A stretch of DNA of 64,000 nucleotides from Alphaproteobacteria bacterium (GTDB lineage: Bacteria; Pseudomonadota; Alphaproteobacteria; Rhodobacterales; Rhodobacteraceae): assembly GCA_030427405.1 (NCBI GenBank), contig JAUHXK010000001.1, positions 310,001-374,000 of the forward strand. The letters are read 5' to 3'. Shown here piece after piece: positions 1,267 through 32,983 of the stretch. The translations under genes were made by a program, and so were the position numbers. How positions within the stretch are numbered: position 1 is the first letter of the stretch; each line of letters begins with the position of its first letter. The notes beneath the pieces were generated by a model. It was not told where the DNA came from and did not search any database. It saw only the letters and a list, made by a program, of their open reading frames with translations.

Positions 1267-1449
1267 TTAGCTTGCAGCAACAGCTGCGGCAACGACGACC
1301 AGCAGGATCAGCGGCAGGATGATGCCCTGCGACGAACCCTGGGTTTCTTCAACAACAACAGGTGCTTCAACAACCGGCTCTTCCAGGTTGCCTGCGTAAG
1401 CGGTCGAAGCAGCAGCGGTCAGTGCAGCGGCGAGAACGAGTTTCTTCAT
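1267..1449 (-). CDS. 60-aa protein with signal peptide and C-terminal membrane helix
   Basis: Starts MKKLVLAAALTAAASTAYA, a classic Sec signal peptide with an AXA cleavage site. A short acidic Pro/Val-rich linker (NLEEPVVEAPVVVEE) follows, then a hydrophobic C-terminal helix (about residues 43-60). The mature protein would be only about 40 residues. The start at 1449 is supported by GGAGGTT a few bases upstream; the longer reading frame to 1536 has no such signal. Similar tiny proteins next to hemH are, as far as I recall, common in roseobacters, but I know of no function. It is convergent with hemH and shares its terminator. Confidence 0.75.
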   Translation of the reverse strand: MKKLVLAAALTAAASTAYAGNLEEPVVEAPVVVEETQGSSQGIILPLILLVVVAAAVAAS

Positions 1450-1588
1450 ATTAACCTCCAGAATTTGCGCGATTCCATCTCTAGGAACCGCACACCCAAG
1501 ACTTACCTCGTGGGTTTTTCTAATCAGCAATGGCACGGGAATGCAATTGCAACTTGAACCACAGGCGGGTTCGCGCGCGAAAATGTCG

Positions 1589-2188
1589 TCAAATTAGCAA
1601 CACTTGCGTGCCGACCTTCGCCATAGAGAACAGCTCGGCGATGTCCTCGTTGAACAAACCGATGCAACCGTTGGACGATCTGCGCCCGATTTTGCGCGTG
1701 TCATGCGTTCCGTGGATGCGGTAATACTTCCAGCCCAGATACAAAGCATGCGTTCCCAATGGGTTATCGGGCCCCGGCGGAATATAGTCCGGCCATTCCG
1801 GGTTTCGTTTCTTCATCGACGGCGTCGGCGACCAGCTTGGCCCTTCGACCTTGCGGATGACACTTGTCCTGCCGCGCCGCGTCAATTCTTCGGTCAGGGG
1901 CACCGACGAGGGATAAAGTTTGTAGACCGACTGGTCATCCGACCAATAATGCAACGCACGCGAGACCGTATCCACCAGGATGGCGCCGTTTCTCGTGTTC
2001 GAGAAATAGGGCTGCCATTCAAGCGCCCGAAAGCCCGAAACGTTGCGGCGCACTGCCGGCTCGGCTTCGGGGGCGGGGCGCAGCGGGTCGCCAGGGATAT
2101 ACTGCGCAACCGCAGGCGCGGCGAGCGCTGCTCCTGCGCTGGCCAGAAAACCGCGGCGGGTGGACAGACGAATGAGTTTCTTGACCAT
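1589..2188 (-). CDS. L,D-transpeptidase (YkuD domain), Tat-exported
   Basis: 199 aa. L,D-transpeptidases make 3-3 peptidoglycan cross-links or attach proteins to peptidoglycan in the periplasm. The N-terminus has a twin-arginine signal (STRRGFLASAGAALAAP, about residues 9-25) ending in AVAQ. The YkuD active-site block is clear: YRIHGTHD (His159) and SSNGCIGL (catalytic Cys175), spaced as in the family. No LysM or other binding domain is present, so it is a minimal enzyme. It is a single gene on the minus strand between two convergent or divergent neighbours. Which cross-link it makes cannot be read from the sequence. Confidence 0.93.
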   Translation of the reverse strand: MVKKLIRLSTRRGFLASAGAALAAPAVAQYIPGDPLRPAPEAEPAVRRNVSGFRALEWQPYFSNTRNGAILVDTVSRALHYWSDDQSVYKLYPSSVPLTEELTRRGRTSVIRKVEGPSWSPTPSMKKRNPEWPDYIPPGPDNPLGTHALYLGWKYYRIHGTHDTRKIGRRSSNGCIGLFNEDIAELFSMAKVGTQVLLI

Positions 2189-2357
2189 ATCAAACGGCCC
2201 TTTGCTATGATTGGGTGCAAATTTTGGACCATTTTATTGCCAGAATGCTTCAGTCGCAAATCAAACCGGCAGAATCACGCGAGGTTGTGTCATTGCGCGT
2301 TTACTCAAGGCGGCAAGGCAGGCTATTCCCCAATACGAAACCACAATCAGGCCGATC

Positions 2358-2876
2358 ATGACGCGCATTGTTTCTTTTCTATTGATTTCACTCCTCGCCC
2401 TTGCCGCGTGTACCGACACCAGCGGCACCACAGCCCTGGGCGCGGACGGACGCCCGCTGCCGACCGTTTACAAGATTCGCGGCAATCCCGAAAAGCTGCA
2501 ATACCGCATGCTTGATTCGGTCAATGCCCTGCGCCAGTCCTCGGGGCTTCAACCTGTGCAACTGAACGCCCAGCTCAACGCCGCGGCTGCAACCCATTCC
2601 AAGGACATGTCGCGCCAGAACCGCCCCTGGCACTTCGGCTCTGACGGGTCGTCGCCGCTGGATCGGGCCCAGCGGGTTGGGTATTACGGCACCTTCCTGG
2701 GCGAGGCGATTTCGGAAACATACGAAACCGAAACCGAAACCCTGGCCGCCTGGATGCAGGAACCAGGGCCGCGGTCGGTCATCATGGACCCAAAAGCGAC
2801 GCAGATGGGCTTTTCCTGGCACCAGGAAGGTGGCGGCAAGATCTGGTGGACGCTTGAAATGGGCACCGGCGGCTGA
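2358..2876 (+). CDS. CAP/SCP-family lipoprotein
   Basis: 172 aa. The lipobox LALAAC puts the lipidated cysteine at residue 18, so the protein is expected in the membrane facing the periplasm. The body matches the CAP (SCP/PR1-like) fold: LDSVNALRQSSGLQPV near the start, then the alpha-helical HSKDM segment, the WHFGSDGSSPLDRAQRVGY block, LGEAISE, and a C-terminal WWTLEMG. These mirror the signature segments of YkwD-type bacterial CAP proteins. The ATG at 2358 is chosen over the upstream in-frame starts because the signal peptide begins there. The function of bacterial CAP proteins is largely unknown. Confidence 0.88.
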   Translation: MTRIVSFLLISLLALAACTDTSGTTALGADGRPLPTVYKIRGNPEKLQYRMLDSVNALRQSSGLQPVQLNAQLNAAAATHSKDMSRQNRPWHFGSDGSSPLDRAQRVGYYGTFLGEAISETYETETETLAAWMQEPGPRSVIMDPKATQMGFSWHQEGGGKIWWTLEMGTGG

Positions 2877-2895
2877 CACCTGACCACTTCTCAAC

Positions 2896-2927
2896 AAAAA
2901 GGCCCCCGACATCGGGGGCCTTTTTTT
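2896..2927. terminator. bidirectional intrinsic terminator
   Basis: GGCCCCCG (2901-2908) pairs with CGGGGGCC (2913-2920) around ACAT, with A5 to the left and T7 to the right. It separates the convergent CAP lipoprotein gene and ptsN. Confidence 0.9.
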
Positions 2928-2966
2928 GTTTCAGCACGAAACGTGTTTGGTCAGTAAATCCGTAGG

Positions 2967-3431
2967 TCAGGCAGCCTGCATGGATTGCGGCGCGGTCAGG
3001 ATAGCGTACAGCTTGACCGGGTCCGGATTGGCCCGCAGCTTGGCGCATATCGACTGTTCGCGCAGGGTCCGGGACACCAGCGCCAGCGCTTTCAGGTGAT
3101 CAACCCCACCGTCTTCCGGCGCAAACAGCGCAAAGGCCAGATCGACTGGCTGTCGATCCACCGACCCGAAATCGATCGGCTTTTCCAACATCACGAACAC
3201 ACCAACCACGGAGTCCAGCCCGGACAGGCGCGCATGCGGCAGGGCAACCCCGTGCCCAACACCCGTCGGCCCCAGGCTTTCACGTTCCAGCAGGCCATCA
3301 ACGGTTGCTTGCGGGTCCAACCCGAGCGTTCCGGCCGCCACATCACCGATTTCCTGAAACAGCCGCTTTTTGCTGGAGGCGGCGGACAACACGCGCACCG
3401 CCTCGGGCTTGAGTATGCTCGAAAGCTCCAT
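2967..3431 (-). CDS. ptsN: nitrogen-PTS EIIA component
   Basis: 154 aa, a full-length PTS EIIA type-2 domain. It is the terminal phosphoacceptor of the nitrogen phosphotransferase system (PtsP-NPr-EIIA-Ntr), which regulates potassium transport and nitrogen/carbon balance rather than sugar uptake. The phosphorylated histidine is in GVALPHARL (His66). The ATG at 3431 is used because GGAG lies seven bases before it; the ATG at 3437 is too close to that site. It follows hpf by 60 bases on the same strand, the usual alphaproteobacterial order, although rpoN is not between lptB and hpf here. Confidence 0.95.
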   Translation of the reverse strand: MELSSILKPEAVRVLSAASSKKRLFQEIGDVAAGTLGLDPQATVDGLLERESLGPTGVGHGVALPHARLSGLDSVVGVFVMLEKPIDFGSVDRQPVDLAFALFAPEDGGVDHLKALALVSRTLREQSICAKLRANPDPVKLYAILTAPQSMQAA

Positions 3432-3491
3432 AATCATGCTCCGTGGCGTCTCCCCCCGCTTACGCAGGAGGGCGCCTGTTAACCTTGCCTA

Positions 3492-4055
3492 TTACGGATC
3501 AATCCAGCCGATATTTCCGTCTTCACGACGATACACGACATTCAATCCGTCCTTGTTCTCATTCCGGAACACCAGCACCGGGGCGCCTGCAAGTTCCATT
3601 TGCATCACGGCTTCACCCACGCTCAGCGACGGGATCTTGGTTTCCATCTCAGCCACAATCATCGGCTGCAGAGATTCGGGTTCGTCGGCCGTAGACGATT
3701 CGTCAGAGGCGAGGATATAAGACGACGCCCCGAAGAGTTCAACCGGTTCGGACCGATCCTTGTGATGGTCCTTGAGACGACGCTTATAGCGCCGAAGCTG
3801 GGTTTCCATCTTGTCGCAGCATCCCTCGAAGGCCGCATAGATCTCGGTCGCATGGGCCTTGGCCTGTGCTGTCAGGCCGGTGGACAGATGCACGGTCGTT
3901 TCGCAAACATATTCATGCGCTGAACGGGAAAAGACGACATTGGCATCCGTCGGTCGCTGGGCGTATTTGCCAACAACCTCGCCAAGTTCGGTCTGCACGT
4001 GGGTTTGCAGGGCGGTACCGATGTCGATCTGTTTTCCGCTGATTTGGTAACGCAT
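3492..4055 (-). CDS. hpf: long-form ribosome hibernation promoting factor
   Basis: 187 aa. Long HPF proteins bind the 30S subunit and dimerise 70S ribosomes into inactive 100S particles in stationary phase. The N-terminal S30AE domain begins MRYQISGKQIDIG and runs to about residue 100. A linker follows, then a C-terminal dimerisation domain of about 55 residues containing PMIVAEMETKIPSLSVGEAV and VVYRREDGNIGWIDP. The start at 4055 is backed by GGAG just upstream. It is probably co-transcribed with ptsN, and a 252-base gap separates it from lptB, so it may have its own promoter. Confidence 0.95.
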   Translation of the reverse strand: MRYQISGKQIDIGTALQTHVQTELGEVVGKYAQRPTDANVVFSRSAHEYVCETTVHLSTGLTAQAKAHATEIYAAFEGCCDKMETQLRRYKRRLKDHHKDRSEPVELFGASSYILASDESSTADEPESLQPMIVAEMETKIPSLSVGEAVMQMELAGAPVLVFRNENKDGLNVVYRREDGNIGWIDP

Positions 4056-4307
4056 GTGATCTCCTTCACAATTCACACCCATTCTGAAGCCGCGGGTCGC
4101 GGCATACGTGTTTTTATCGGGTGGGGGGTAGCGACATATTCAGCGGTTGCCTTTGATCCGGCCCTTCAGTGAAGGGACATCGAGATCCAGACTGGAACCG
4201 AAGAATTGCCATGGCCCAATTGAGGCAAGAGACGGCGGAAGAGTCAATCAAAACAGGTGTGTATATACGCGATTTCCGGCATGCACCCGGCGCAAATCCG
4301 CGCAAGG

Positions 4308-5066
4308 TCATGAAATACGGAAATTTTCACCCAGATAGACCCTGCGGACGTTTTCGTTTTCGACCACTTCATCGGGGGTGCCCGACATAAGCACCTGGCC
4401 GTCATGAAGGATATAGGCGCGATCAACGATCTCAAGGGTTTCGCGGACATTGTGGTCGGTAATCAGAACCCCGATCCCGCGCTTTTTCAGGTCGGCCACA
4501 AGATGGCGGATATCGCCAACACTGATCGGGTCGACACCGGCAAACGGCTCGTCCAACAGCAGGTATTTCGGATCGGCCGCCAGGCAGCGCGCAATCTCGA
4601 CCCGGCGGCGTTCGCCACCGGAAAGGGCCAGGGCGGGTGCGCGCCGCAGGTGTTCGATGGAAAAGTCGGACAGCAATTCTTCCAGCCGTTCCTTTCGCCG
4701 GTGGGCATGGTCCACCGTGATATCCAGAACCGCCGCGATATTGTCTTCGACGCTCATCCCGCGAAAGATCGACATCTCTTGCGGCAGATAACCGATGCCC
4801 ATGCGTGCGCGCCGGTACATGGGCAGGGTGGTGACGTTCTGGCCATCAATGGTGACGGTTCCGGCCTCGGGGAACACCAGGCCTGCGACGGAATAGAAGG
4901 TTGTGGTTTTTCCCGATCCGTTCGGGCCAAGCAGGGCAACAACTTCGGACCGGTCAAGGGTCATGGTGACGTCGCGGATAACCGTTTTCTTGCGATAGGA
5001 TTTCCGGAGTTTCTCAATCCTGAGACCCGATGCCCCCTGAGCCACTGACAGGTTGGGACGGGCCAT
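4308..5066 (-). CDS. lptB: LPS export ABC transporter ATPase
   Basis: 252 aa. LptB is the cytoplasmic ATPase of the LptB2FGC complex, which extracts lipopolysaccharide from the inner membrane. Walker A GPNGSGKTT is at about residues 47-55, the ABC signature LSGGERRRVEIAR and Walker B YLLLDEPFAGVD follow, and the switch histidine is in VLITDHNVRET. Length and motifs match LptB rather than an amino-acid transporter ATPase, and the gene order lptC-lptA-lptB confirms it. Its ATG overlaps the lptA stop by one base (TGATG), which suggests translational coupling. Confidence 0.96.
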   Translation of the reverse strand: MARPNLSVAQGASGLRIEKLRKSYRKKTVIRDVTMTLDRSEVVALLGPNGSGKTTTFYSVAGLVFPEAGTVTIDGQNVTTLPMYRRARMGIGYLPQEMSIFRGMSVEDNIAAVLDITVDHAHRRKERLEELLSDFSIEHLRRAPALALSGGERRRVEIARCLAADPKYLLLDEPFAGVDPISVGDIRHLVADLKKRGIGVLITDHNVRETLEIVDRAYILHDGQVLMSGTPDEVVENENVRRVYLGENFRIS

Positions 5067-5557
5067 CAGTTGCCACCCGGCTGAAGAATGGTTTTGACCC
5101 GGCCAGACATCGTCGCGGTGCCCGCCGACAGGTTAGCCACCATCTGATCGCCACTGATCGTGCTGGGGCCTTGCGTCAGCAGGACATTGCCCTTCATCAC
5201 GATCACGCCGCTTTCGATCGTGTATTCCGCCCAATCGCCCTCGGCTGCATCCGGCGGGCTGACAAGCACAACGTTTTCGGTGGCCTCCATACGCTCGATC
5301 GCTGACCGTTCCTGGTTATAAATGACCAGAACGCGTTCAGCCGTCAGGCGCATCTCGCCCTGAATGACAAGCACCTCGCCAACGAATTCGGCCGACCCGG
5401 TTTCCTGGTTTACATTCAGCGTTTGCGACGTCACCTCGACCGGCAGCGTCGGGTCGGCTTTAACCGATCCGAAAGCAACCTGTGCTTCTTGTGCGAATGC
5501 CGGGGCCATACCGGCGGCAAGGGCGATGCAAACTGGGACTAAACGAAAATCGAACAC
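5066..5557 (-). CDS. lptA: LPS transport periplasmic protein
   Basis: 163 aa. LptA forms the periplasmic bridge that carries LPS from LptC to the outer-membrane LptDE complex. A signal peptide ends near AQEAQ (about residue 25). The repeating beta-jellyroll of the OstA fold shows as alternating strands such as TSQTLNVNQETGSAEFVGEV and MRLTAERVLVIYN. Two to three bases separate it from lptC and it overlaps lptB by one base, so all three are probably one transcript. Confidence 0.92.
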   Translation of the reverse strand: MFDFRLVPVCIALAAGMAPAFAQEAQVAFGSVKADPTLPVEVTSQTLNVNQETGSAEFVGEVLVIQGEMRLTAERVLVIYNQERSAIERMEATENVVLVSPPDAAEGDWAEYTIESGVIVMKGNVLLTQGPSTISGDQMVANLSAGTATMSGRVKTILQPGGN

Positions 5558-5560
5558 AGG

Positions 5561-6160
5561 TTATCTTTCTGCCTTTTCCGGCTCATATACCAATTTAACG
5601 CCATCTGTAAAAAGAATATGGACCGGGCCGTCCTTTTTGTCAGCGCCAAAGGTCATGCGCCCGGCGGTGAAATTTCCAATCGGGCCGGTTCCGTCCACCT
5701 GGCCAGGTGTATCGCCCCGAATTTCGTCAAGCGATGTATTCAGCAAATCCGTAGTGACCCGAATTCCGTCGGTGGTGGTAATGACGACATCCCCAACGAA
5801 GGTTGCAGTGCCTTTGTCAGGTCGTATCGACCCGGTCTTGGAATCCAGCGTAATGATACCGCCGTTCAGCAGGTCAAAGCGCCCATGAAATTCATCTGCG
5901 GTCGCCGAGGTGCCATTACCCCCCTGGGTGGCCCTGCGCGCATCGACCCGGATGTTCTCGCCCTTTCGGGTCGTGCCCCGGTAATGCGGGCGGGTGACGA
6001 CCTGGCCTTCGATCCGTTCGCGGATGTCCTGCTGGGTAAAGGGCCCGGACACGTTTGTCTCGATACTGCGTGAAAACAGGAAAACCGTCGAAAGCAACAG
6101 GATTGCTGCCAGCGGAAGAAGGACCTTCAGCAACTGCACCATGCGTGAATAGCGGTCCAC
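5561..6160 (-). CDS. lptC: LPS export protein, inner-membrane anchored
   Basis: 199 aa. One N-terminal membrane helix (about residues 9-28, LLKVLLPLAAILLLSTVFLF) is followed by a periplasmic domain. That domain has the LptC-type repeats GRFDLLNGGIITLDSK and GTATFVGDVVITTTDGIRV. LptC docks on LptB2FG and passes LPS to LptA. Sequence conservation in this family is weak, so the assignment leans on topology, length and position directly before lptA. Confidence 0.9.
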   Translation of the reverse strand: MDRYSRMVQLLKVLLPLAAILLLSTVFLFSRSIETNVSGPFTQQDIRERIEGQVVTRPHYRGTTRKGENIRVDARRATQGGNGTSATADEFHGRFDLLNGGIITLDSKTGSIRPDKGTATFVGDVVITTTDGIRVTTDLLNTSLDEIRGDTPGQVDGTGPIGNFTAGRMTFGADKKDGPVHILFTDGVKLVYEPEKAER

Positions 6161-6172
6161 CTCAGCCTCCTG

Positions 6173-7141
6173 TCAGCCCAGACCGACCCGCAGGCAGTCA
6201 TGGATGTGCAGCAATCCCTGAACTTGACCCGGCCTGTCGGCATCCACCACAAACAACGAAGTGATCTTGTGGCGGTTCATGATTGCAACAGCCTCTTCGG
6301 CCAGCGCATCAGGGGAAATGGTCGTTGGGTCCGGGGTCATGACCTGCTTGGCCTCATTGTCCAGCAACCCGTCCATGTGCCGCCGCAAGTCGCCATCGGT
6401 AATAATACCTGCCAAACGGCCCTGCGCATCATTCACCCCCGCGACACCAAACCCTTTTTGGCTGATTTCGATCAGCGCGTCGCCCATCGGCGTCTCAAGG
6501 GAAACCAGCGGCAGCGCCGTGCCGGAATGCATCAGGTCGCGCACCGTGCTCAGGCGTGCACCAAGCTTGCCGCCCGGGTGAAAGGCTCTGAAATCCTCGG
6601 GTTTGAAATCCCGGTATTTCATCAGCGCGATGGCCAGCGCATCGCCCATCGCCAGGGTCAGGGTCGTGGAAATCGACGGCACCATGCCAAACCCGCAGGC
6701 CTCGCCCAGGGACGGGATCAGAAGATGCACGTCCGCCTGTTGCATCAGCGTGCTTTCGGGTTTGCTGGACAGCCCGATCAGCGGGATGTCGAACCGTCGT
6801 GTAAAGGCCAGAAGATTGGCCAGCTCCGGTGCTTCGCCCGAGTTGGATATCGCCAGGACCACGTCGCCCTTGGACACCATGCCCAGGTCACCGTGGCTGG
6901 CTTCGGCCGGGTGCACGAAATAGGCCGGTGTTCCGGTACTGGCGAGCGTCGCGGCGATCTTGTGGCCGATATGCCCGGATTTGCCTATGCCGCTAACGAT
7001 GATCCGGCCACTTGCGCGCAAGATCAGGTGCACGGCCTCGACAAATTGGTCGTCAAGCCCCTCGGCCAGCGTATCCAGAGCGCGGGCTTCGTCTGTGACG
7101 ACCTGTCGTGCGGTTCTCAGAAATGCGTCGTTGTCGGTCAT
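6173..7141 (-). CDS. kdsD: D-arabinose 5-phosphate isomerase (KpsF/GutQ family)
   Basis: 322 aa. Converts ribulose 5-phosphate to arabinose 5-phosphate, the first step to Kdo for the LPS core. It has an N-terminal SIS domain (about residues 30-165, with SGIGKSGHIGHKIAATLAST and SNSGEAPEL) and two CBS domains (about 200-320, including MHSGTALPLVS and QVMTPDPTTISPDALAEEAV). This is the standard full-length architecture. Its start overlaps the end of the upstream RNase D-like gene by four bases. Position next to lptCAB supports an LPS role. Confidence 0.95.
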   Translation of the reverse strand: MTDNDAFLRTARQVVTDEARALDTLAEGLDDQFVEAVHLILRASGRIIVSGIGKSGHIGHKIAATLASTGTPAYFVHPAEASHGDLGMVSKGDVVLAISNSGEAPELANLLAFTRRFDIPLIGLSSKPESTLMQQADVHLLIPSLGEACGFGMVPSISTTLTLAMGDALAIALMKYRDFKPEDFRAFHPGGKLGARLSTVRDLMHSGTALPLVSLETPMGDALIEISQKGFGVAGVNDAQGRLAGIITDGDLRRHMDGLLDNEAKQVMTPDPTTISPDALAEEAVAIMNRHKITSLFVVDADRPGQVQGLLHIHDCLRVGLG

Positions 7142-25533: not shown

Positions 25534-26178
25534 CTATTTCGATTTCCAACTGTCCAGCCACCGGCGAAACCTGTTGCGGCGATCCTCGAATGCATCTCCG
25601 GCGGCATAGAACCCGTCTTCGACATTTTCTATCATCGGATCAATCCGCGCCTGTCGAAACCGGCGCCACCGCACCCAGATCGCCCAAAGCACCGCAAAAA
25701 ACAGCGTCAGGAAAACAATGTTGAACCATGGAATGATCCGAACATCTGGCCCTTCGACATGTTTGATGAAGATCGCATTGGGAAAGATCGACATGAATTC
25801 GTTTCGCCAGCCGTAATGCGTGACGACAACCCATTCCGGGTTGTCCTTGGTCGACTTTGCGTCATTCGCCTCGGTATACAGATTGGCCGTATCGAACTTG
25901 AAATAGAAGGGCCAACCCCAACCGGTATCCTCGTTGCGATAGACAATCGGCTTGCCATTGGCGCGAACCGCCTGGATGAACTGAACATCGCGATTGGACA
26001 GGCTGGTCGATTGGTCCTCGGGTTCGGACCAGAAAATGCGGGTCCAGTCGGTCAGGTCCTGACGCTCTTCGTATGTGTTGACGATCCGCACCACATCGTG
26101 TTGCGGCAACGAATATTGCAGGATCGCAGCGACCGTGCCCCAAAAGATCAGAATGACTGCCCATTTCAGATAGGCCAT
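25534..26178 (-). CDS. DUF1523-like membrane protein (AAA+ operon, gene 8)
   Basis: 214 aa. One N-terminal membrane helix (about residues 5-22) is followed by a soluble, mixed alpha/beta region of about 125 residues with many aromatic residues (WTRIFWSEP, DTGWGWPFYFKFDTANLYT). A second helix (IPWFNIVFLTLFFAVLWAIW, about 149-168) precedes a basic Arg-rich tail. The region between the two helices should face the periplasm. This resembles the DUF1523 family, for which no function is known to me. It is the last gene of the operon, ten bases after the 88-aa membrane gene. Confidence 0.75.
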   Translation of the reverse strand: MAYLKWAVILIFWGTVAAILQYSLPQHDVVRIVNTYEERQDLTDWTRIFWSEPEDQSTSLSNRDVQFIQAVRANGKPIVYRNEDTGWGWPFYFKFDTANLYTEANDAKSTKDNPEWVVVTHYGWRNEFMSIFPNAIFIKHVEGPDVRIIPWFNIVFLTLFFAVLWAIWVRWRRFRQARIDPMIENVEDGFYAAGDAFEDRRNRFRRWLDSWKSK

Positions 26179-26188
26179 GCCGTAAACC

Positions 26189-26455
26189 TCACATGTAATT
26201 CACGATATATATCAACGCACCGATTGCCACCCAGGGAACGACAAAGACGCCCAGGATCAGTTTGCGCCGGAACGAATTGTCATAGACATGCAGACCCCGT
26301 TCCACAAAGGCTTGCTTATTGCCCTTCTTGCCCTTTTCGTCCCACCAGGTCTCAAGCTTTCGACGGCGCACCCCGCGCGAGTAGAACGACAGCGCGACAT
26401 AGCCAATCGCCTGGATGACCAGCAGGACCAGAAACAGGCGCATCGCTCCGATCAT
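26189..26455 (-). CDS. 88-aa two-helix membrane protein (AAA+ operon, gene 7)
   Basis: Two membrane helices at about residues 6-24 and 64-86 flank a charged cytosolic segment of about 35 residues (RRRKLETWWDEKGKKG). The basic residues next to the first helix suggest that this loop is cytosolic and both ends are outside. No family is recognised. One base separates it from the upstream soluble gene, and ten from the DUF1523-like gene, so it is likely part of the same transcript. Base composition is like the neighbours, unlike genes 2 and 5. Confidence 0.75.
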   Translation of the reverse strand: MIGAMRLFLVLLVIQAIGYVALSFYSRGVRRRKLETWWDEKGKKGNKQAFVERGLHVYDNSFRRKLILGVFVVPWVAIGALIYIVNYM

Positions 26456-26456
26456 A

Positions 26457-27794
26457 TCAACCCCTTCCTACCGCGCCCCAGGGCCCAACGCGGGCAATCA
26501 CCGCCTCGCTGACGCGGTCATCACCGCTCATGTCCGGCTCATGTCCGAACAGCGCGGCACGGGCACCGGCCTTGTCCACCTGATACTCGCGCGCGAGAAA
26601 GTCGGCAACATAGGCTTTCTTGGATTCGGGCCAATCCGCGTAGGTATCATAGAACAGTTCCTTGTGGCAGATGAACATCTGGCGCGGATCCAGCGGCGCC
26701 AATTCGGCCAACAGCATGTTCACCAGATCGCGGTTCGGCGTATCCGCGGCGCGCAGCGTGTAGAAATAGGCCGGATGATCCGAGGTGATACGCGGCCAGC
26801 GCCCGCCATCGGTCGCCCAGCGCAGCAGTTCCGCCAACCCGTGATAAGCCTCGGGCAATTGGTCCGCGTGATTGCGCGCCAACCGTCGCATATCGCTGCG
26901 GTCCAGCCCCCCGAGATCGACACTCGCGTCCGCGGCGGCGGCAACGGTCAAAAAGTCCATCTTTTGCTGCAGGATCGCGGCGGCATCCACCCCGCGCGCC
27001 TTGACGATGGGTTCCACCAGATCGTTATAGTCCAGGAACTTGGCGACCTGGTTTCGCTGCGACGGATCGAACGTGTACTTGATCGGCAAATCGTCCGGTT
27101 TGTCACCCATACAGATGGCCGCCGGATGATCCAAATCCGGGAACAGGTACAGCCCGCCGAAATACGCCGTCCAGAAGTTGCGCTGCTCAAACTCGGTATG
27201 GCGCAAGTGGACAGGGTTGCGGGTGACGTCGCCAGTTTCCTTGGCCGTTTCGATCATCCTGGCGATCAGCACATCGTCGAACCACGCATCCTCTTTGGTC
27301 TTGAACTTTTCAACCATGGCCGCCAGTTGCTCGGCCTTGCGCAGGGTGCCGCCGACCGTATCGGCCTCGATCTCGATCTTGCGCAGGTTTAACAGATCAT
27401 TGGGCGTGGTGAGTTTGAAGACCGAGTTCACCAGCTCTCCGGCCACCGCATCGGTGGCGGTCAGGGCGAACAGCTGCGCCTCATTCATCTCGATAAACTC
27501 GCGCAGGATGTCGCGCGAGGTCGAGAATTTGACGTTCAGCAGAGGCGCGCGTTTCTGCTCGGTCGTCAGCAGGATAAATTGCCGGTTCACGCCGTTGGGG
27601 TTGAGGTAGAGCTCATCCTCCAACTCAATCCCCACCTCGGGCGAATAGCCCGAGATATCGACATGGAAATCCGTCAGCGCCGTGGTCTTACCCGCCAGAT
27701 GCTGCAACGCGCGGTTGTACCGCTCGACCAGAGCCGGGCTTGAGATGTGGACGAGATTGCCGAACATCAGGCCTTTTTCGATGAGGCGGATCAT
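26457..27794 (-). CDS. uncharacterised 445-aa soluble protein (AAA+ operon, gene 6)
   Basis: No signal peptide or membrane helix. The sequence is globular, with an N-terminal mixed alpha/beta part (about 1-150, HVDISGYSPEVGIELEDELY) and a largely helical part (about 150-445) containing FWTAYFGGLYLFPDLDHPA and QMFICHKELFYDTYADWPES. I see no catalytic motif. The sequence reminds me of a family carrying a Pfam DUF6638-type name, but I cannot verify that. It overlaps gene 5 by four bases and is one base from gene 7, so it is coupled to both. A structural or adaptor role for the AAA+ ATPase is inference only. Confidence 0.75.
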   Translation of the reverse strand: MIRLIEKGLMFGNLVHISSPALVERYNRALQHLAGKTTALTDFHVDISGYSPEVGIELEDELYLNPNGVNRQFILLTTEQKRAPLLNVKFSTSRDILREFIEMNEAQLFALTATDAVAGELVNSVFKLTTPNDLLNLRKIEIEADTVGGTLRKAEQLAAMVEKFKTKEDAWFDDVLIARMIETAKETGDVTRNPVHLRHTEFEQRNFWTAYFGGLYLFPDLDHPAAICMGDKPDDLPIKYTFDPSQRNQVAKFLDYNDLVEPIVKARGVDAAAILQQKMDFLTVAAAADASVDLGGLDRSDMRRLARNHADQLPEAYHGLAELLRWATDGGRWPRITSDHPAYFYTLRAADTPNRDLVNMLLAELAPLDPRQMFICHKELFYDTYADWPESKKAYVADFLAREYQVDKAGARAALFGHEPDMSGDDRVSEAVIARVGPWGAVGRG

Positions 27795-28249
27795 TGGCGC
27801 TCTTCTTGTTGGATAGTCGTTTCCTCGACGTTCCAGAGAAATTCTTCCTGTTGAGCCATTCGGACCAAATTATGTTCCGAAAACATGTCACTATTGCCGG
27901 AACGTCGGCGGCTGATCGAAAGCGTTGCCAGACAAAACAAGAGACTCAAGACCAATATTGCCCAAACTCCAACAATTCCGGACAATATAGAAACAAGAAC
28001 AATGAATATGGAAACTGCCCACATGCTTAGAAAATAGTCTAAGCTTTCTACACCTCGCGTCAAAACGACTGATACCGCTACTGGAACGAGGGGAACGATA
28101 GTGAAAAACAAACCCACAGTAATCAATACCGCGCGAAGTCTAAGTCGGTTTAGTTTTGGTGAACCTGTTTTTCCTATACGCCAACCAACAAGGCAGGACA
28201 CCGCCATGCTGGATACGACGAAGATAAGAACTTCCAGACCGCCGCTCAC
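27791..28249 (-). CDS. 152-aa membrane protein, AT-rich (AAA+ operon, gene 5)
   Basis: About four membrane helices (about residues 6-22, 40-62, 72-92, 96-112), then a charged C-terminal tail of about 40 residues with NSDMFSEHNLVRMAQQEEF. Both ends overlap the neighbouring genes by four bases (27791-27794 and 28246-28249), so it is firmly in the operon. Its base composition is unusual: 27961-28020 is about 40% GC and 27841-27900 about 43%, against clearly GC-rich flanking genes. That suggests a separate origin or relaxed selection. No family is recognised. Confidence 0.75.
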   Translation of the reverse strand: MSGGLEVLIFVVSSMAVSCLVGWRIGKTGSPKLNRLRLRAVLITVGLFFTIVPLVPVAVSVVLTRGVESLDYFLSMWAVSIFIVLVSILSGIVGVWAILVLSLLFCLATLSISRRRSGNSDMFSEHNLVRMAQQEEFLWNVEETTIQQEERQ

Positions 28250-30177
28250 CCCTTCTCCTCCAGATACCGCCGCTTGGCCTCTTCCATCCGGCCCATCTCG
28301 CGGACGGCGTTCTCGATGGCGACCTCGTCGCTCTTGTCGGCATAGCGGAACTCGCTGTCGGCGTATCGGTTGATCTCTTGCATCACCATGTCCACCGTGA
28401 TCGGCTGGCGCAGGTCCTCGATCATGGCCTTCTTGTTATCGTAGTCGCGGAACAGGAACAGGTCGGGGTTCTCCATCCATTCGTCGGGCAGTTCGAAATC
28501 CATCGCGCGGACCTTGACCGCGTCGGTGATGTTCTTGATCGCGCGACCGGTGAAGCGCTCATCGGCCTGTTGGATCGCCTTGAGGTAGGTGCCCAGTTTG
28601 GCGATCGTGTCCATCTGGCCGATCTCTCCAGAGACCCGGTCATAGACCTGTAGCAGCGCGTCCTCATGCGGGCGGGAATGGCTTTCGAAACTGGCGGCGA
28701 CGGCCTTTTTGATTTCCTGCGCGGCATAGGCCTCGTGCTCGCCCAGCGGAATGTCGTGGTTACGGCCCATCAGCAGGTGCAGGATGTCGATGTAATCCTC
28801 ACGCGTTTGCGGCCCATCCACCAGAAACCGTGCTCCGGCACGCTGACGCAGGGCATCGTCCACATTCTCGGGGTAGTTCGAGAACATGCCAAAGGTGCAA
28901 TTGCCGCGCACAACAGTGTTGGCGCCCGCAAAGCTCTCCATCAGCACGGCGGTGATTTCCAACTGCCCGGCTGACGACTGCCGGTCGCCACGCTTGCCCG
29001 CCAGTTGGTCGATATCGTCGATGGTGCCGAAGCCGATGACCGAGGGGTCGATGATCGTGTTGATAAACGCCTTGGCGTTCTGGCCGGATTTACCCTGATA
29101 GCTGTCGATATTGTCGGTGCTCAGGTTCTGATAGCGAAACGGGTAGCCCGCGTTCTGGCAATAGTCGTTGATCAGCCCGGCCATCATCTGGATCAGGGTG
29201 GTCTTGCCGGTGCCCGGTTTGCCATCGCCCATGAAGGTAAAGATGAACCCGCCGAGTTCCGCAAACGGGTTCAGGCGGCGGTCGAAATCATAGGCCATCA
29301 CCATCTTGGCCAGCTTCATCGCCTGATACTTGGCAATATGGTTGCCGACCACCTCGTTCGGCTTCTTGAACGTCATGGTCAGGGTGGTGGATTTGGCTTT
29401 GGATGCCGGTTCGAACCCCCGGATCGTCAGATCGTCGGCCTCGATATGCCAGGCGGCGTTCTGGAACGGGGCCAGATGGCCTGCGGACCCTGCGCGCAAG
29501 GCGGCCTTTTCCATCAGTTGCTCGGCATATGCACTGACCGCCGCGATCAGATGCGCGTCGTCGGGGGCGTGTTTGGCCAGCACCTGATCCAGCTCCCACA
29601 ACGCACCGTGCAGGGCAAGCTGGCCGTTATCGGTCAGGACCTCTTCGATCTCTCCAATGTCCACGGTGGTCTCGCCCAAATGCGACGACATCAGGTAAGC
29701 CAGCGCATTGCCGAAAGTATGAGAGGTGATCAAAGCCTCAGCCGTCAGCAGTTCCGAAAACTCGGTCTTGCGCGCAACAGGCAGATCCCCCGCCAGATTG
29801 GCCCTTTTCAAATCGGCCAGCGGCGTCTGCTCGGCATAGGCATCGGCCACGGCCAGAGCGATGGCAATCGCGCGCCGAATGGCCTGCTGCGCGGTGGCCT
29901 GTGGCGGCGAGACCAGCGTATCCCCATCATCCGAGGCCTCGATACGCTCAACCAGATGCACCCCATCCGCCCGCACAGTGCGGCGCGTGACCAACCCCGG
30001 CGTAGTCGATCGAAACCTCCGCCCCGTCGACACGCCCGAGGACCGCTCGACCGCCAGGTCAACCGGTTTCGCAATGCGTGGCGCGTGTTCGAACCCGTTC
30101 AACAAGACCGTCGCCGCGGGATAATGCTTGCGAATATCGTCTTCGCGCAATTCCATCTGATCTGACGTCAAACTCAT
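28246..30177 (-). CDS. AAA+ ATPase, core of an uncharacterised operon (gene 4)
   Basis: 643 aa. An N-terminal region of about 300 residues without known motifs is followed by an AAA+ module. Walker A is GKPGTGKT (319-326). The Walker B-like segment GFGTIDDID is at 382-390. Sensor 1 is in CTFGMFSNYP (N434), an arginine-rich segment DALRQRAGARF (441-451) could hold the arginine finger, and a sensor-2-like GRAIKN is at 544-549. So ATP binding and hydrolysis should be intact. It is not one of the common housekeeping AAA+ classes (no ClpX, FtsH, Lon or MoxR-type signatures). It overlaps gene 5 by four bases. Substrate unknown; it could remodel a membrane complex formed by the neighbouring proteins. 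Confidence 0.88.
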   Translation of the reverse strand: MSLTSDQMELREDDIRKHYPAATVLLNGFEHAPRIAKPVDLAVERSSGVSTGRRFRSTTPGLVTRRTVRADGVHLVERIEASDDGDTLVSPPQATAQQAIRRAIAIALAVADAYAEQTPLADLKRANLAGDLPVARKTEFSELLTAEALITSHTFGNALAYLMSSHLGETTVDIGEIEEVLTDNGQLALHGALWELDQVLAKHAPDDAHLIAAVSAYAEQLMEKAALRAGSAGHLAPFQNAAWHIEADDLTIRGFEPASKAKSTTLTMTFKKPNEVVGNHIAKYQAMKLAKMVMAYDFDRRLNPFAELGGFIFTFMGDGKPGTGKTTLIQMMAGLINDYCQNAGYPFRYQNLSTDNIDSYQGKSGQNAKAFINTIIDPSVIGFGTIDDIDQLAGKRGDRQSSAGQLEITAVLMESFAGANTVVRGNCTFGMFSNYPENVDDALRQRAGARFLVDGPQTREDYIDILHLLMGRNHDIPLGEHEAYAAQEIKKAVAASFESHSRPHEDALLQVYDRVSGEIGQMDTIAKLGTYLKAIQQADERFTGRAIKNITDAVKVRAMDFELPDEWMENPDLFLFRDYDNKKAMIEDLRQPITVDMVMQEINRYADSEFRYADKSDEVAIENAVREMGRMEEAKRRYLEEKG

Positions 30178-30231
30178 CTCAAAAACCGCCCATGCTTCAT
30201 CTTTTCAAAAATACTCTCGCCGAAGGCGAAA

Positions 30232-31350
30232 CTAATAACGCAACACCTGCCCCGATTTGCTGACGACAAACTTGGCCACATCGGCAAAGCCCGGCGGGTT
30301 GCGCTCGGCCAGCACCTGAAACGGGCGCTGGGGCAGGATGATCGACCGCTGCGTGCGTGTCGCCCCTGTCTCGGCCCCCTGCCCACCGAACGGGTCCAGT
30401 GCAAACACCTCGCGCTCAACAGTGGAAAACCACCCAGCACGTTCTTCGGTCACCTTTTCGCTTTCCAATTCCTCGGTGGTCCAGGCCAGCGCCCAATCCT
30501 GCCCTTGCGGCGACTGCGCATCTTCCAGAACCTGCCGCAAGGGGCCGGACTGCTCGGTAAAGGCCGAGGAATACATCGGCCCCACATGAATACGGCGCAG
30601 GTGTTTGGGATGCAGGTCATCAAAATCCTGATCAAAGCCCTTGGCGATGGTCACCAGTTTCAGCCCGCCTAAGGATTGCGCCATCAGATGGGCCTGCACC
30701 TCGGGCCATCGACGTTGATCCTTGGGCAGGGCCGTCTTACCGCTGTCCTCCAACTGCATCAAATAGATGACCGGCAGGTTGATCTGGCTGTCATAAACCG
30801 CCCAATGGATCATGAACTTGCGCCGTTCACCCTTATTCTCAATCCAATGACACTCGGGATCGTTGCGCGCCCAGAACAGCTGACCCTTCAGCAATTCCTC
30901 GTAATAGAGCCTTTGGGACAGCGCGAATTGCAGCTTGGTGGGGATGTCCTGGTCGCCGATTATCGTCCGCACCATGTCGGATTTCAGCTCATCCTCAGAT
31001 GGCATATTCGCCAGATGCACCTGCGCCTGCTGCGCGTCATTGGCCATTGTCAACAGCTCGGCCGCCACCGGAAACCCGCTGTCGCGCTTGTCCATGGCAA
31101 GGCTGCCAAAGAACCGCCCCGTATCGCGCCCGACCAGCAGGTATTTCATGGAAAGCGCGCGGAAGGTGTAGAGCAGCCCCGACAGGTAGCGCGACACGAT
31201 CCGCACCTCTTGCTTGCTGATCGCGCCCTCAGCCTCCATCGTCGCGGCCACGCGCAAGAGGTGAACGGTGATCACCTCGAATTTGCGGAAATAGCGGCGC
31301 GAGGCGAAGGTGTCGGTCAGGCCGACATGATCTTGGGTGGGGTTAGTCAT
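30232..31350 (-). CDS. uncharacterised 372-aa soluble protein (AAA+ operon, gene 3)
   Basis: Soluble, mostly helical in the first 200 residues (FEVITVHLLRVAATMEAEGA, then LYYEELLKGQLFWARNDPEC) and more beta-rich in the last 170. No catalytic or metal-binding motif is evident. The ATG at 31350 is used: it overlaps the end of gene 2 by eight bases, and the longer frame starts with GTG at 31377 with a poorer context. A 54-base gap separates it from the AAA+ gene. I recall a DUF-named family with similar layout but cannot confirm it. Function unknown. Confidence 0.75.
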   Translation of the reverse strand: MTNPTQDHVGLTDTFASRRYFRKFEVITVHLLRVAATMEAEGAISKQEVRIVSRYLSGLLYTFRALSMKYLLVGRDTGRFFGSLAMDKRDSGFPVAAELLTMANDAQQAQVHLANMPSEDELKSDMVRTIIGDQDIPTKLQFALSQRLYYEELLKGQLFWARNDPECHWIENKGERRKFMIHWAVYDSQINLPVIYLMQLEDSGKTALPKDQRRWPEVQAHLMAQSLGGLKLVTIAKGFDQDFDDLHPKHLRRIHVGPMYSSAFTEQSGPLRQVLEDAQSPQGQDWALAWTTEELESEKVTEERAGWFSTVEREVFALDPFGGQGAETGATRTQRSIILPQRPFQVLAERNPPGFADVAKFVVSKSGQVLRY

Positions 31351-31624
31351 TCTGGGTTTTTCTATTACCGGCTCCACGGAATTGTGTGAGCCGCCACGGC
31401 AGGAGAAGAACTTCTGACATCAGGTACAACGCGAAGATGATAAGCCCGAAGACTATGCTACCCGGACCGACATAAAGAGTTAGGAAGCCGAGCAGTTTGT
31501 AAGCTACGCCTTCAACAGCCAATTCGTGTAAAAGGGCAGTTAGGCCATAAATCGGGATCGGCCAAACTACGAGAATGAGGCCAAACCTTAGCAACCTTTC
31601 GTCTTTTCGGCTAAACCACTTCAT
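31343..31624 (-). CDS. 93-aa membrane protein (AAA+ operon, gene 2)
   Basis: Two or three membrane helices (about residues 12-32, 40-58, 58-78) with a basic C-terminal tail (LPWRLTQFRGAGNRKTQND). It overlaps the upstream coiled-coil gene by four bases and the downstream gene. Local GC is about 48-50%, lower than genes 1, 3 and 4, the same oddity as gene 5. No family recognised. Confidence 0.75.
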   Translation of the reverse strand: MKWFSRKDERLLRFGLILVVWPIPIYGLTALLHELAVEGVAYKLLGFLTLYVGPGSIVFGLIIFALYLMSEVLLLPWRLTQFRGAGNRKTQND

Positions 31625-32700
31625 CCCCCATACAGGTTCTTATCATGCTTCTCGACTATCGAGGCAAACCGGCGGGCAAAGCGTTCATCCGCCTTGGCCT
31701 TTTTCTCCAGCACGTCACGGGCAAAGACCATGTGGTCCTCATGCGCCTCAAGCATATCAGCCATCTTCTGATTGGTCGCGGTGCCAATGGCGGCCATGGC
31801 GGTTTGGGCCTCTTGGTCGGTCTGCACGCCGATCTCGTTGATGCGGTGGGCCACGTCCTGTTGCTGCGCGGTTTTCAGCGATTTGGTCAGGGCGTCGTAC
31901 AGCACCACGCGCTGTTGTGTGTCTGTCTGCAGCTTGTTGATCAGCACCATCTGCGTCGCCGCCTGGTTCTGCAGTGAATCGACCCAGGTCTTGCCCTTTT
32001 CGATGTACCGTTCCAACGTCTGAGACTTGGCCAGCTTGACCTGCTCTTCCTGAACCTTGGCGTTGTATTGCTTGTTCAGCTCGGCCAGCTCGGTTTCCAA
32101 CTGGGTCCGCGCGGCGGCGTCCTGTTCGACGCTGATCTTGTTCTCCAAGGTGATGATCGCCGGGTCCATACCCTGAATTTCGGTCCGCAGCGCCTCAAGC
32201 TCTGCGACGGTCGCCTCACGGTCATCCAGCGTAACGGTCAGGTTGTCCTCGACCTTGACGCGCTGTTCTTCCAGCACGGACAGTTGTCCCTCCAACAGCT
32301 TCACGATCACGTCGGATTTGGCGATCAGGTCCTGCAGCTTGTCGTCGATATTGGCCGTGCGCATCCGCTCCTGCCGCAGGGATTCGGATTTGCCTTTTGA
32401 AAAGATGCCGACAAAGGACTCCCACCCGGTTTTCGAGCGCATCTCGTCAAAATCTTTGGAAAAGGCGCTGGTGACGTCGTCCAGCCCCATGATCAGTTCG
32501 GCAATGTTCGCGTTCATCACCTCGGTATGGGCATGCACGTCTTCCAGCGTGGCGTTTTCGATGTCGATATCCGCCTCGGCAGTGCCAATCTTGGCGCGCG
32601 CGGCCTCAATGCGTGAGGTTAATCCTTCGATTTGCGACTGCGACTCTTGCACCTTGGTCTGAGTCTCTTTGATCAACGCCTCGAATTGCTGGTTCGACAT
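31621..32700 (-). CDS. TelA-like coiled-coil protein (AAA+ operon, gene 1)
   Basis: 359 aa, soluble, almost entirely alpha-helical. A first coiled coil covers about residues 5-75 and a second about 140-235. The long C-terminal helical part (about 240-359, QNQAATQMVLINKLQTDTQQ then RVVLYDALTKSLKTAQQQDV) is laid out like TelA/KlaA-type toxic-anion-resistance proteins. That resemblance is by eye and distant. The ATG at 32700 is used because AGGGATAG lies ahead of it. It opens the eight-gene operon and is divergent from the succinate-semialdehyde dehydrogenase gene. Confidence 0.8.
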   Translation of the reverse strand: MSNQQFEALIKETQTKVQESQSQIEGLTSRIEAARAKIGTAEADIDIENATLEDVHAHTEVMNANIAELIMGLDDVTSAFSKDFDEMRSKTGWESFVGIFSKGKSESLRQERMRTANIDDKLQDLIAKSDVIVKLLEGQLSVLEEQRVKVEDNLTVTLDDREATVAELEALRTEIQGMDPAIITLENKISVEQDAAARTQLETELAELNKQYNAKVQEEQVKLAKSQTLERYIEKGKTWVDSLQNQAATQMVLINKLQTDTQQRVVLYDALTKSLKTAQQQDVAHRINEIGVQTDQEAQTAMAAIGTATNQKMADMLEAHEDHMVFARDVLEKKAKADERFARRFASIVEKHDKNLYGG

Positions 32701-32983
32701 CTGCCTATCCCTGTTTTCCTTATGCACCCAACAAGATAGGGAATGTTACGACTATTTACATCCCCTCGGGCCTCCAAATACCGGGACTTTGGCAAAATCG
32801 CATCGAAAAAGATAGGCGCGAACGTCTTCGGGCCGACAGTTTACCGCAGCGCCGCGAAAACATGGGCCTGGCGGCATCGGATTTTGATCAAATCTGGACT
32901 GATCCGCCGCCATGGGTGGTCATGGACAATCGCCCCGCCACCTGTTTGTGTACGCCCGACCCATCCCTGCCGGAGACCGCGCC

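Follow-up and report, generated by a model that had tools for sequence, protein, structure and literature searches.

Eight genes lying head to tail on one strand of a Rhodobacteraceae genome raise the question of whether they encode a single machine and what such a machine would act upon. The genes, termed g1 to g8 in order of transcription, run from position 32700 to position 25534 on the minus strand of the stretch of DNA analyzed (the window), which comprises 64,000 nucleotides of contig JAUHXK010000001.1 (positions 310,001 to 374,000; assembly GCA_030427405.1). An initial annotation of this sequence had suggested that all eight might be parts of one membrane-bound machine. Comparison with related loci gave a different picture, in which g1, g3, the AAA+ ATPase gene g4, the DUF6638 gene g6 and a fixed pair of membrane protein genes, g7 and the DUF1523 gene g8, form a conserved core, and g2 and g5 occupy two polymorphic slots. 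The reading favored here, tentatively, is that the operon may encode an envelope AAA+ machine controlling exchangeable, mostly membrane output proteins, possibly with an anti-phage purpose.

Conservation of the core was assessed in 120 loci (40 genome loci and 80 named ones, the best 80 of 459), of which 118 were distinct by g4 DNA. The loci had been picked by a match to g4 or g6, so co-occurrence is conditional on these genes. The order and direction of the core genes present, g1-g3-g4-g6-g7-g8, were kept in all 120 loci (trivially in L106, which has g4 alone), and because of this constancy the arrangement is not a product of chance. All six genes were found in 103 loci; individually, g4 was present in 120, g3 in 119, g1 in 117, g6 in 116, g8 in 109 and g7 in 105. 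Contig ends explain some of the missing genes (for example, in L126, L141 and L166), and real-looking losses were observed in L106 and in L107 and L116, the last two being without g6 to g8 within the 7 kb examined. Four loci of family f10 were without g7 and g8 and kept the order g1-g3-g4-g6 at 29-56% identity. The four-gene order was also present on pSymB of Sinorhizobium meliloti and on an 882-kb replicon of Vibrio parahaemolyticus, where the four proteins gave core profile E-values of 2.8e-77 to 8.3e-289 in a set of 12 proteins.

By contrast, the occupants of the g1-g3 junction (slot A, holding g2 in the window) and of the g4-g6 junction (slot B, holding g5) changed from locus to locus. In tblastn searches g2 was found in 3 of the 120 loci and g5 in none, and the only one of 198 family genomes with g5 was the window's own. 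Linkage across Rhodobacteraceae thus held for the core and failed for g2 and g5; these two sit in polymorphic slots outside the conserved set, and the initial picture of a single eight-part machine is not supported. Junctions of at least 200 bp were observed in 65 of 115 loci for g1-g3, in 99 of 114 for g4-g6 (distance range 6 to 2386 bp) and in 13 of 117 for g3-g4, compared with insertions of this size in 0 of 103 loci for each of g6-g7 and g7-g8. Within 17 Ruegeria-like loci (g4 at least 94% identical, window included), the cargo fell into 11 groups in slot A and 10 in slot B, and the group in slot A did not predict that in slot B, the window's five-member A group being spread over five B groups. 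Slot B of such close relatives contained proteins as different as a HEPN-like protein (L097), an Mrr protein (L104), an AbiJ_NTD4 protein (L105) and a membrane coiled coil (L099). In these 17 loci the guanine-plus-cytosine (GC) content was 48.4% for slot A, 48.6% for slot B and 59.4% for the core. When the slot-B class (nine classes) was mapped on a FastTree tree of g4 from 113 loci, at least 42 changes were required, compared with a mean of 61.4 and a minimum of 56 after shuffling. Slot contents are exchanged often, yet they also follow descent to some degree.

The cargo was mostly membrane protein. An ORF (open reading frame) with a hydrophobic segment was found in 56 of 67 cases for slot A and 74 of 101 for slot B, compared with 2 of 151 spurious control ORFs within g4. 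Four families recurred in slot B. Three are membrane proteins: one of ∼110-130 aa, seen in 24 loci, one that combines a coiled-coil-like stretch with a variable tail, in 15, and one of ∼98 aa, in 8. The fourth, found in 6 loci, is soluble and has a HEPN-like motif, RNxxxxH, which was invariant in 5 aligned rows. The cargo ORFs came from a simple gene caller, and some are spurious or overlong; of 189 slot ORFs of at least 80 aa, 123 were scanned against Pfam after mostly redundant ones had been dropped by hand (positions 3344-6778 of L165 were scanned additionally). The families found were DUF559 (4), DUF4279 (2) and AbiJ_NTD4 (2), with Mrr_cat, PIN_10, ParE and others once each. Matches of slot ORFs in PADLOC were few, the strongest being the Mrr protein.

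Several cargo families reside mainly in the slots. Profiles of the 110-130 aa membrane family (A9), the membrane coiled-coil family (A8) and the HEPN-like family (A10) were searched in 80 of the 162 genomes with g4, and g2 in 40 of these; the three profiles were made from slot proteins, which favors slot hits. For A9, 22 of 22 genome-wide matches, in 21 genomes, adjoined g4. For A8, 13 of 18 matches lay at the operon, as did 12 of 12 below E 1e-20, and for A10 the count was 4 of 6. The five matches of g2, in 5 of 40 genomes, each adjoined the AAA gene, one match being weak (E 0.001). Cargo is thus largely dedicated to the slots. It ran in the direction of the operon in 91 of 99 cases for slot B and in only 41 of 51 for slot A (longest-ORF test). 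The ATG of an ORF of at least 60 aa was found at -12 to +20 nt from the preceding core stop in 39 of 65 cases for slot A and 39 of 99 for slot B; at the operon end the count was 4 of 107, and after g6, whose true neighbor is g7, it was 104 of 111. This ATG-only recount replaces a count of -4 start overlaps (54 of 99 slot Bs), which was inflated because any NTGA stop gives a permissive start. Given that the cargo is dedicated and starts close to core stops, random tolerated insertions would be an unlikely source.

The coordinates of the window's genes and of the operator-like site upstream of g1 are collected in Table 1. With ATG starts at 32700 for g1 and 31350 for g3 (longer GTG starts are listed at 32727 and 31377, respectively), g1/g2, g4/g5 and g5/g6 overlap by 4 bases each and g2/g3 by 8, and gaps of 54, 1 and 10 bases separate g3/g4, g6/g7 and g7/g8. 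The single direction and this junction pattern, as described in the initial annotation, were reproduced in full from the window's ORF list. Most of the gene kinds that it gave also stood, namely the AAA+ assignment of g4, the DUF1523 likeness of g8 and the division into soluble and membrane proteins: two hydrophobic segments were counted in each of g2, g7 and g8, four in g5 and none in g1, g3, g4 or g6. The g4 protein belongs to the AAA+ family (PF00004, E 1.5e-11, 45.3 bits against a cut-off of 21.2), and its key Walker A and Walker B residues were invariant across 24 aligned rows; we take its motifs to be a GDGKPGTGKT Walker A, an acidic TIDDID Walker B, a conserved FSN and RQRAGAR. The g6 protein, previously described only as soluble, is a DUF6638 member (PF20343, E 1e-229, 763.3 bits against 27, profile positions 1-439 of 439), and membership of DUF1523 was equally clear for g8 (PF07509, E 3.7e-71, 238.6 bits against 23). 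Family searches returned nothing above cut-off for g1, g2, g3, g5 or g7, and Foldseek found no significant PDB match for the structure models of g3 and g6 (E ≤ 0.001 for g6, whose model has a predicted local distance difference test score of 81.1). The initial statement that no domain gives a known pathway agrees with the literature searched, in which no described function of any component and no paper on DUF6638 were found, the component names being absent or incidental.

Table 1. Genes of the operon and the operator-like site in the window
Feature	Position	Strand	Length (aa)	Description
g1	31621..32700	-	359	Soluble, coiled-coil-like core component
g2	31343..31624	-	93	Membrane protein, slot A occupant
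g3	30232..31350	-	372	Soluble core protein, without Pfam family
g4	28246..30177	-	643	AAA+ ATPase, PF00004; N-terminal part of ∼300 residues without assigned kind
g5	27791..28249	-	152	Membrane protein, slot B occupant, orphan
g6	26457..27794	-	445	Soluble core component, DUF6638 (PF20343)
g7	26189..26455	-	88	Membrane protein, fixed partner
g8	25534..26178	-		DUF1523 (PF07509) membrane protein, fixed partner
Operator-like site	32742..32762	-		Palindromic, GATGTAA-N7-TWACATY, exact in window

The one assignment that was overturned concerned g1, which had been likened to TelA. Up to E 0.1 no match of g1 to TelA (PF05816) was found in Pfam, and profile-profile comparison with 8 TelA proteins in hhalign gave a probability of 4.4%. 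The TelA/XpaC pair is a known system, and the likeness to it consists of a coiled-coil soluble protein near membrane genes; the difference is that the genome has its own clear TelA elsewhere (G000 C3:89154, E 6.3e-107), with an adjoining ORF that is membrane-like by eye. Among 24 aligned relatives, g1 was 70-91% identical to 20 and 43-44% identical to the four from f10.

A palindromic site upstream of g1 links the operon to a second locus. In 58 of 113 relatives the consensus in Table 1 matched at 12 or more of its 13 positions, whereas shuffled upstream regions reached at best 10; of 590 random stretches of 160 bp taken from these loci, among which the true site may be included, 3 reached at least 12. 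Of these 58 loci, 56 fitted the alignment frame, 39 of which were not Ruegeria-like, with the site 54-71 nt before g1. In some relatives the palindrome is at its fullest and near-perfect (GGGGATGTAAA-N5-TTTACATCCCC), and a -10-like CCTATCTT (CCTAT) follows it. In the window itself, where the exact match spans 32743-32762, two matches at up to two mismatches were counted against 0.32 expected, a number that 5 of 100 shuffles also reached.

Across the window's genome, three sites were found at up to one mismatch, compared with one for a reversed-pattern control: that of this operon and two before a gene for a membrane protein of the DUF2852 family, which is followed by an RDD-family gene. The latter two are one-mismatch copies 59 bp apart (C9:117149-117228; L215 7150-7170 and 7209-7229). 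In another genus, an exact site precedes a DUF2852 relative (73.7% identical), with a second site, at two mismatches, 60 bp away. Within 26 genomes, hand-picked among those with g4 and in many cases because the locus already had the motif, an exact site occurred in 16, and 15 of 18 distinct exact sites lay before this operon, against 0 for the reversed pattern. The operator is thus common to the operon and DUF2852. A motif before g7-g8 in genome G218 was considered as independent co-regulation and is better read as a relic: there (L234, L235) the operator and g7-g8 adjoin an aldehyde dehydrogenase gene whose product is 82% identical to the window's, and the core lies elsewhere with a diverged DUF1523 gene and without the motif at up to two mismatches, which suggests relocation or replacement of the core. 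A third off-site motif (G233 C22), located where an unassigned ORF begins, may be chance.

These observations can be accommodated by the following scheme. The core machine would consist of g1, g3, the AAA+ protein g4, the DUF6638 protein g6 and the fixed membrane pair g7 and g8, and its two slots, now and then a third, would draw on a pool of interchangeable genes for output proteins, mostly small membrane proteins and sometimes nucleases or HEPN-like RNases. The AAA+ ring, presumably in a physical complex with g1, g3 and g6, would restrain or remodel the slot protein through the fixed membrane pair, control thus passing from core to cargo. A disturbance of the envelope, as from an entering phage or the toxin of a rival, would be the trigger that leads to release or activation of the slot protein, which would then act on the membrane or on nucleic acid, perhaps in the service of anti-phage or anti-rival activity. 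By its kinds the cargo leans to conflict-type effectors; an envelope role is favored by the fixed pair of membrane proteins, by co-regulation with DUF2852 and by the breadth of conservation. If the scheme is correct, an unnamed machine whose motor is fixed and whose outputs are interchangeable is carried by a common marine lineage of bacteria, and candidate membrane- or RNA/DNA-acting effectors could be read off the slots of any genome. The operator and its DUF2852 link offer a direct entry to the inducing signal.

The operon was compared with known systems of similar outline. In CBASS (cyclic oligonucleotide-based antiphage signaling system) the core is fixed and the effectors, nucleases or membrane proteins, vary, and g4 weakly matched the PADLOC model of TRIP13, the partner of HORMA in such systems (E 9.1e-6); this generic AAA match was the best obtained in a PADLOC scan of the eight window proteins, which gave no good defense match and, up to E 0.1, no cyclase or HORMA match. 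The phage shock protein (PSP) system is the PspA envelope response. It shares with the operon an AAA+ protein, membrane proteins and a coiled-coil protein, and a PspA-like gene lies near 3 of 118 loci, but no match in Pfam was found to PspA_IM30 (g1 or the others), to a sigma-54 activator (g4) or to PspB/C. The MoxR-vWA ternary conflict systems, as described by Kaur et al. 2020 (PMC7159879), likewise encode a conserved AAA+-centered core together with variable effectors; the variable parts here differ in being separate slot genes, mostly for small membrane proteins, and none of the eight proteins had a MoxR-type or vWA match in Pfam up to E 0.1. In turnover, low GC content and kind, the slot cargo resembles the effector pools of variable-effector conflict systems such as these. 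The operon is new by anatomy: none of the tested known systems has these core components. A bolder form of the favored scheme would make this a hitherto undescribed Rhodobacterales conflict system, related to loci in Rhizobiales and Vibrio, in which the four-protein AAA+ core and the DUF1523 pair, under a private operator that DUF2852 also has, sense envelope disturbance and fire whatever membrane, HEPN or nuclease effectors the two slots contain, these being swapped like cartridges between strains; this form is rather doubtful.

Several observations weigh against a conflict-type machine with exchangeable outputs. Besides the lack of a good PADLOC match, most cargo is without a known family, with conflict-type families in the minority among the 123 scanned ORFs; matches away from the operon were obtained for two of the three profiles (5 of 18 for A8, 2 of 6 for A10); slot B is empty in 15 of 114 loci; and cargo class partly follows the g4 tree. 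The flanks turn over too, because a control trait, namely whether the locus contains a relative of the aldehyde dehydrogenase, required 27 changes on the same tree. The AAA gene was found in 0 of 50,697 phage records and in no Rhodobacteraceae plasmid record. It is present in 162 of 292 Rhodobacterales genomes (every genome listed belonged to the window's family, f1, and 110 without a match were not listed individually); only four of the 162 gave more than one match. Given that it is common, mostly single and absent from these phages and plasmids, the operon is more housekeeping-like than most defense systems. A housekeeping role in envelope stress, in which the core and g7-g8 would maintain or repair the inner membrane and the slot proteins would be lineage-specific adaptors or clients, is accordingly a serious possibility, although somewhat less likely than the favored reading. 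The operator common to DUF2852, with its paired sites in the window's genome and in another genus, speaks for such a role, and the DUF1523 pair and the few PspA neighbors also point to the envelope. Mrr, AbiJ, DUF559 and HEPN-like cargo, its low GC content and its fast replacement would nevertheless be unusual for adaptors, and the published CenR envelope motif, TGA-N8-TGA (PMC9275681), does not fit the operator. Even a housekeeping operon with two dedicated exchange sites would represent an unusual mode of operon evolution.

If instead the g1-g3 and g4-g6 junctions merely tolerate insertions, the cargo would use the promoter and have no functional link to the core. This permissive landing site is unlikely, although the variable low-GC cargo, the empty slots and the turnover of the flanks would all be expected of it, as would the S. 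meliloti slot, where an endonuclease-domain gene adjoins an IS4 element, and the DnaE2-like polymerase gene inserted between g3 and g4 in one Roseovarius. Mainly slot-resident cargo families, the strong enrichment of membrane proteins and the frequency of cargo starts near core stops, far above that at the operon end, argue the other way, and g6-g7 and g7-g8 carry no cargo of at least 200 bp in 103 loci. It is very improbable that g2 and g5 are orthologous everywhere and simply evolve too fast to be recognized. Membrane proteins, which make up most slot cargo, do diverge quickly, but the broad range of g4-g6 distances and the empty slots do not fit, and unrelated HEPN-like, Mrr, AbiJ_NTD4 and membrane coiled-coil proteins occupy slot B of close relatives, of which Mrr and AbiJ alone already contradict this explanation.

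Some junctions had further features. The g3-g4 gap of the window contains a GC-rich hairpin (30215-30231) followed by GTATTTTT, and many relatives have hairpins of varied form there. Searches of the window for tRNA genes and for Rfam families at gathering score were negative. In L165 (Roseovarius nubinhibens ISM), a 5.6-kb g3-g4 insert (∼1379-6778) carries the DnaE2-like gene, resembling that for DNA polymerase III alpha, behind smaller ORFs, and we take it to resemble an imuA-imuB-dnaE2 mutagenesis cassette inside the operon. The endonuclease-domain gene and IS4 element of S. meliloti pSymB occupy slot B at 11106-12851 of L197.

Across the phylum, the AAA protein was detected at E ≤ 1e-30 in 26 of 398 phylum-sampled genomes, and DUF6638 in 20 of 299 genomes. 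Ten plasmid records matched the AAA gene, all from Sinorhizobium, Vibrio, Shinella or Rhizobium. Among the best 80 of 459 named relatives, 14 of the 16 with a g4 95-97% identical were Ruegeria records, and by sequence the window locus is Ruegeria-like. Six-gene sets with an empty slot B were also seen in L159, titled Halomonas sp. ALS9, and in L071 (G341, of another class), with g4 73% and 72% identical, respectively; by record title or kinship both fall outside the Alphaproteobacteria, which suggests transfer between classes or a mislabeled record.

No universal flank was seen among the 120 loci. An aldehyde dehydrogenase relative, in some cases only 32-35% identical, was present in 69 of them; the flagellar gene flgI lay near the operon only in 17 Ruegeria-like loci, and a lipoprotein gene, mostly upstream, in 19, its product presumably resembling L,D-transpeptidases by motif. 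The three loci with PspA-like genes (L072, L122 and L133) have YiaAB-like genes as well. One of the PspA-like genes matched Pfam PspA_IM30 (E 5.9e-25) and two were weak tblastn matches; the PspA-like and YiaAB-like genes of L072 were ∼30% identical to those of L122 and L133. The position of g7-g8 is taken in S. meliloti by a DUF2333 membrane protein.

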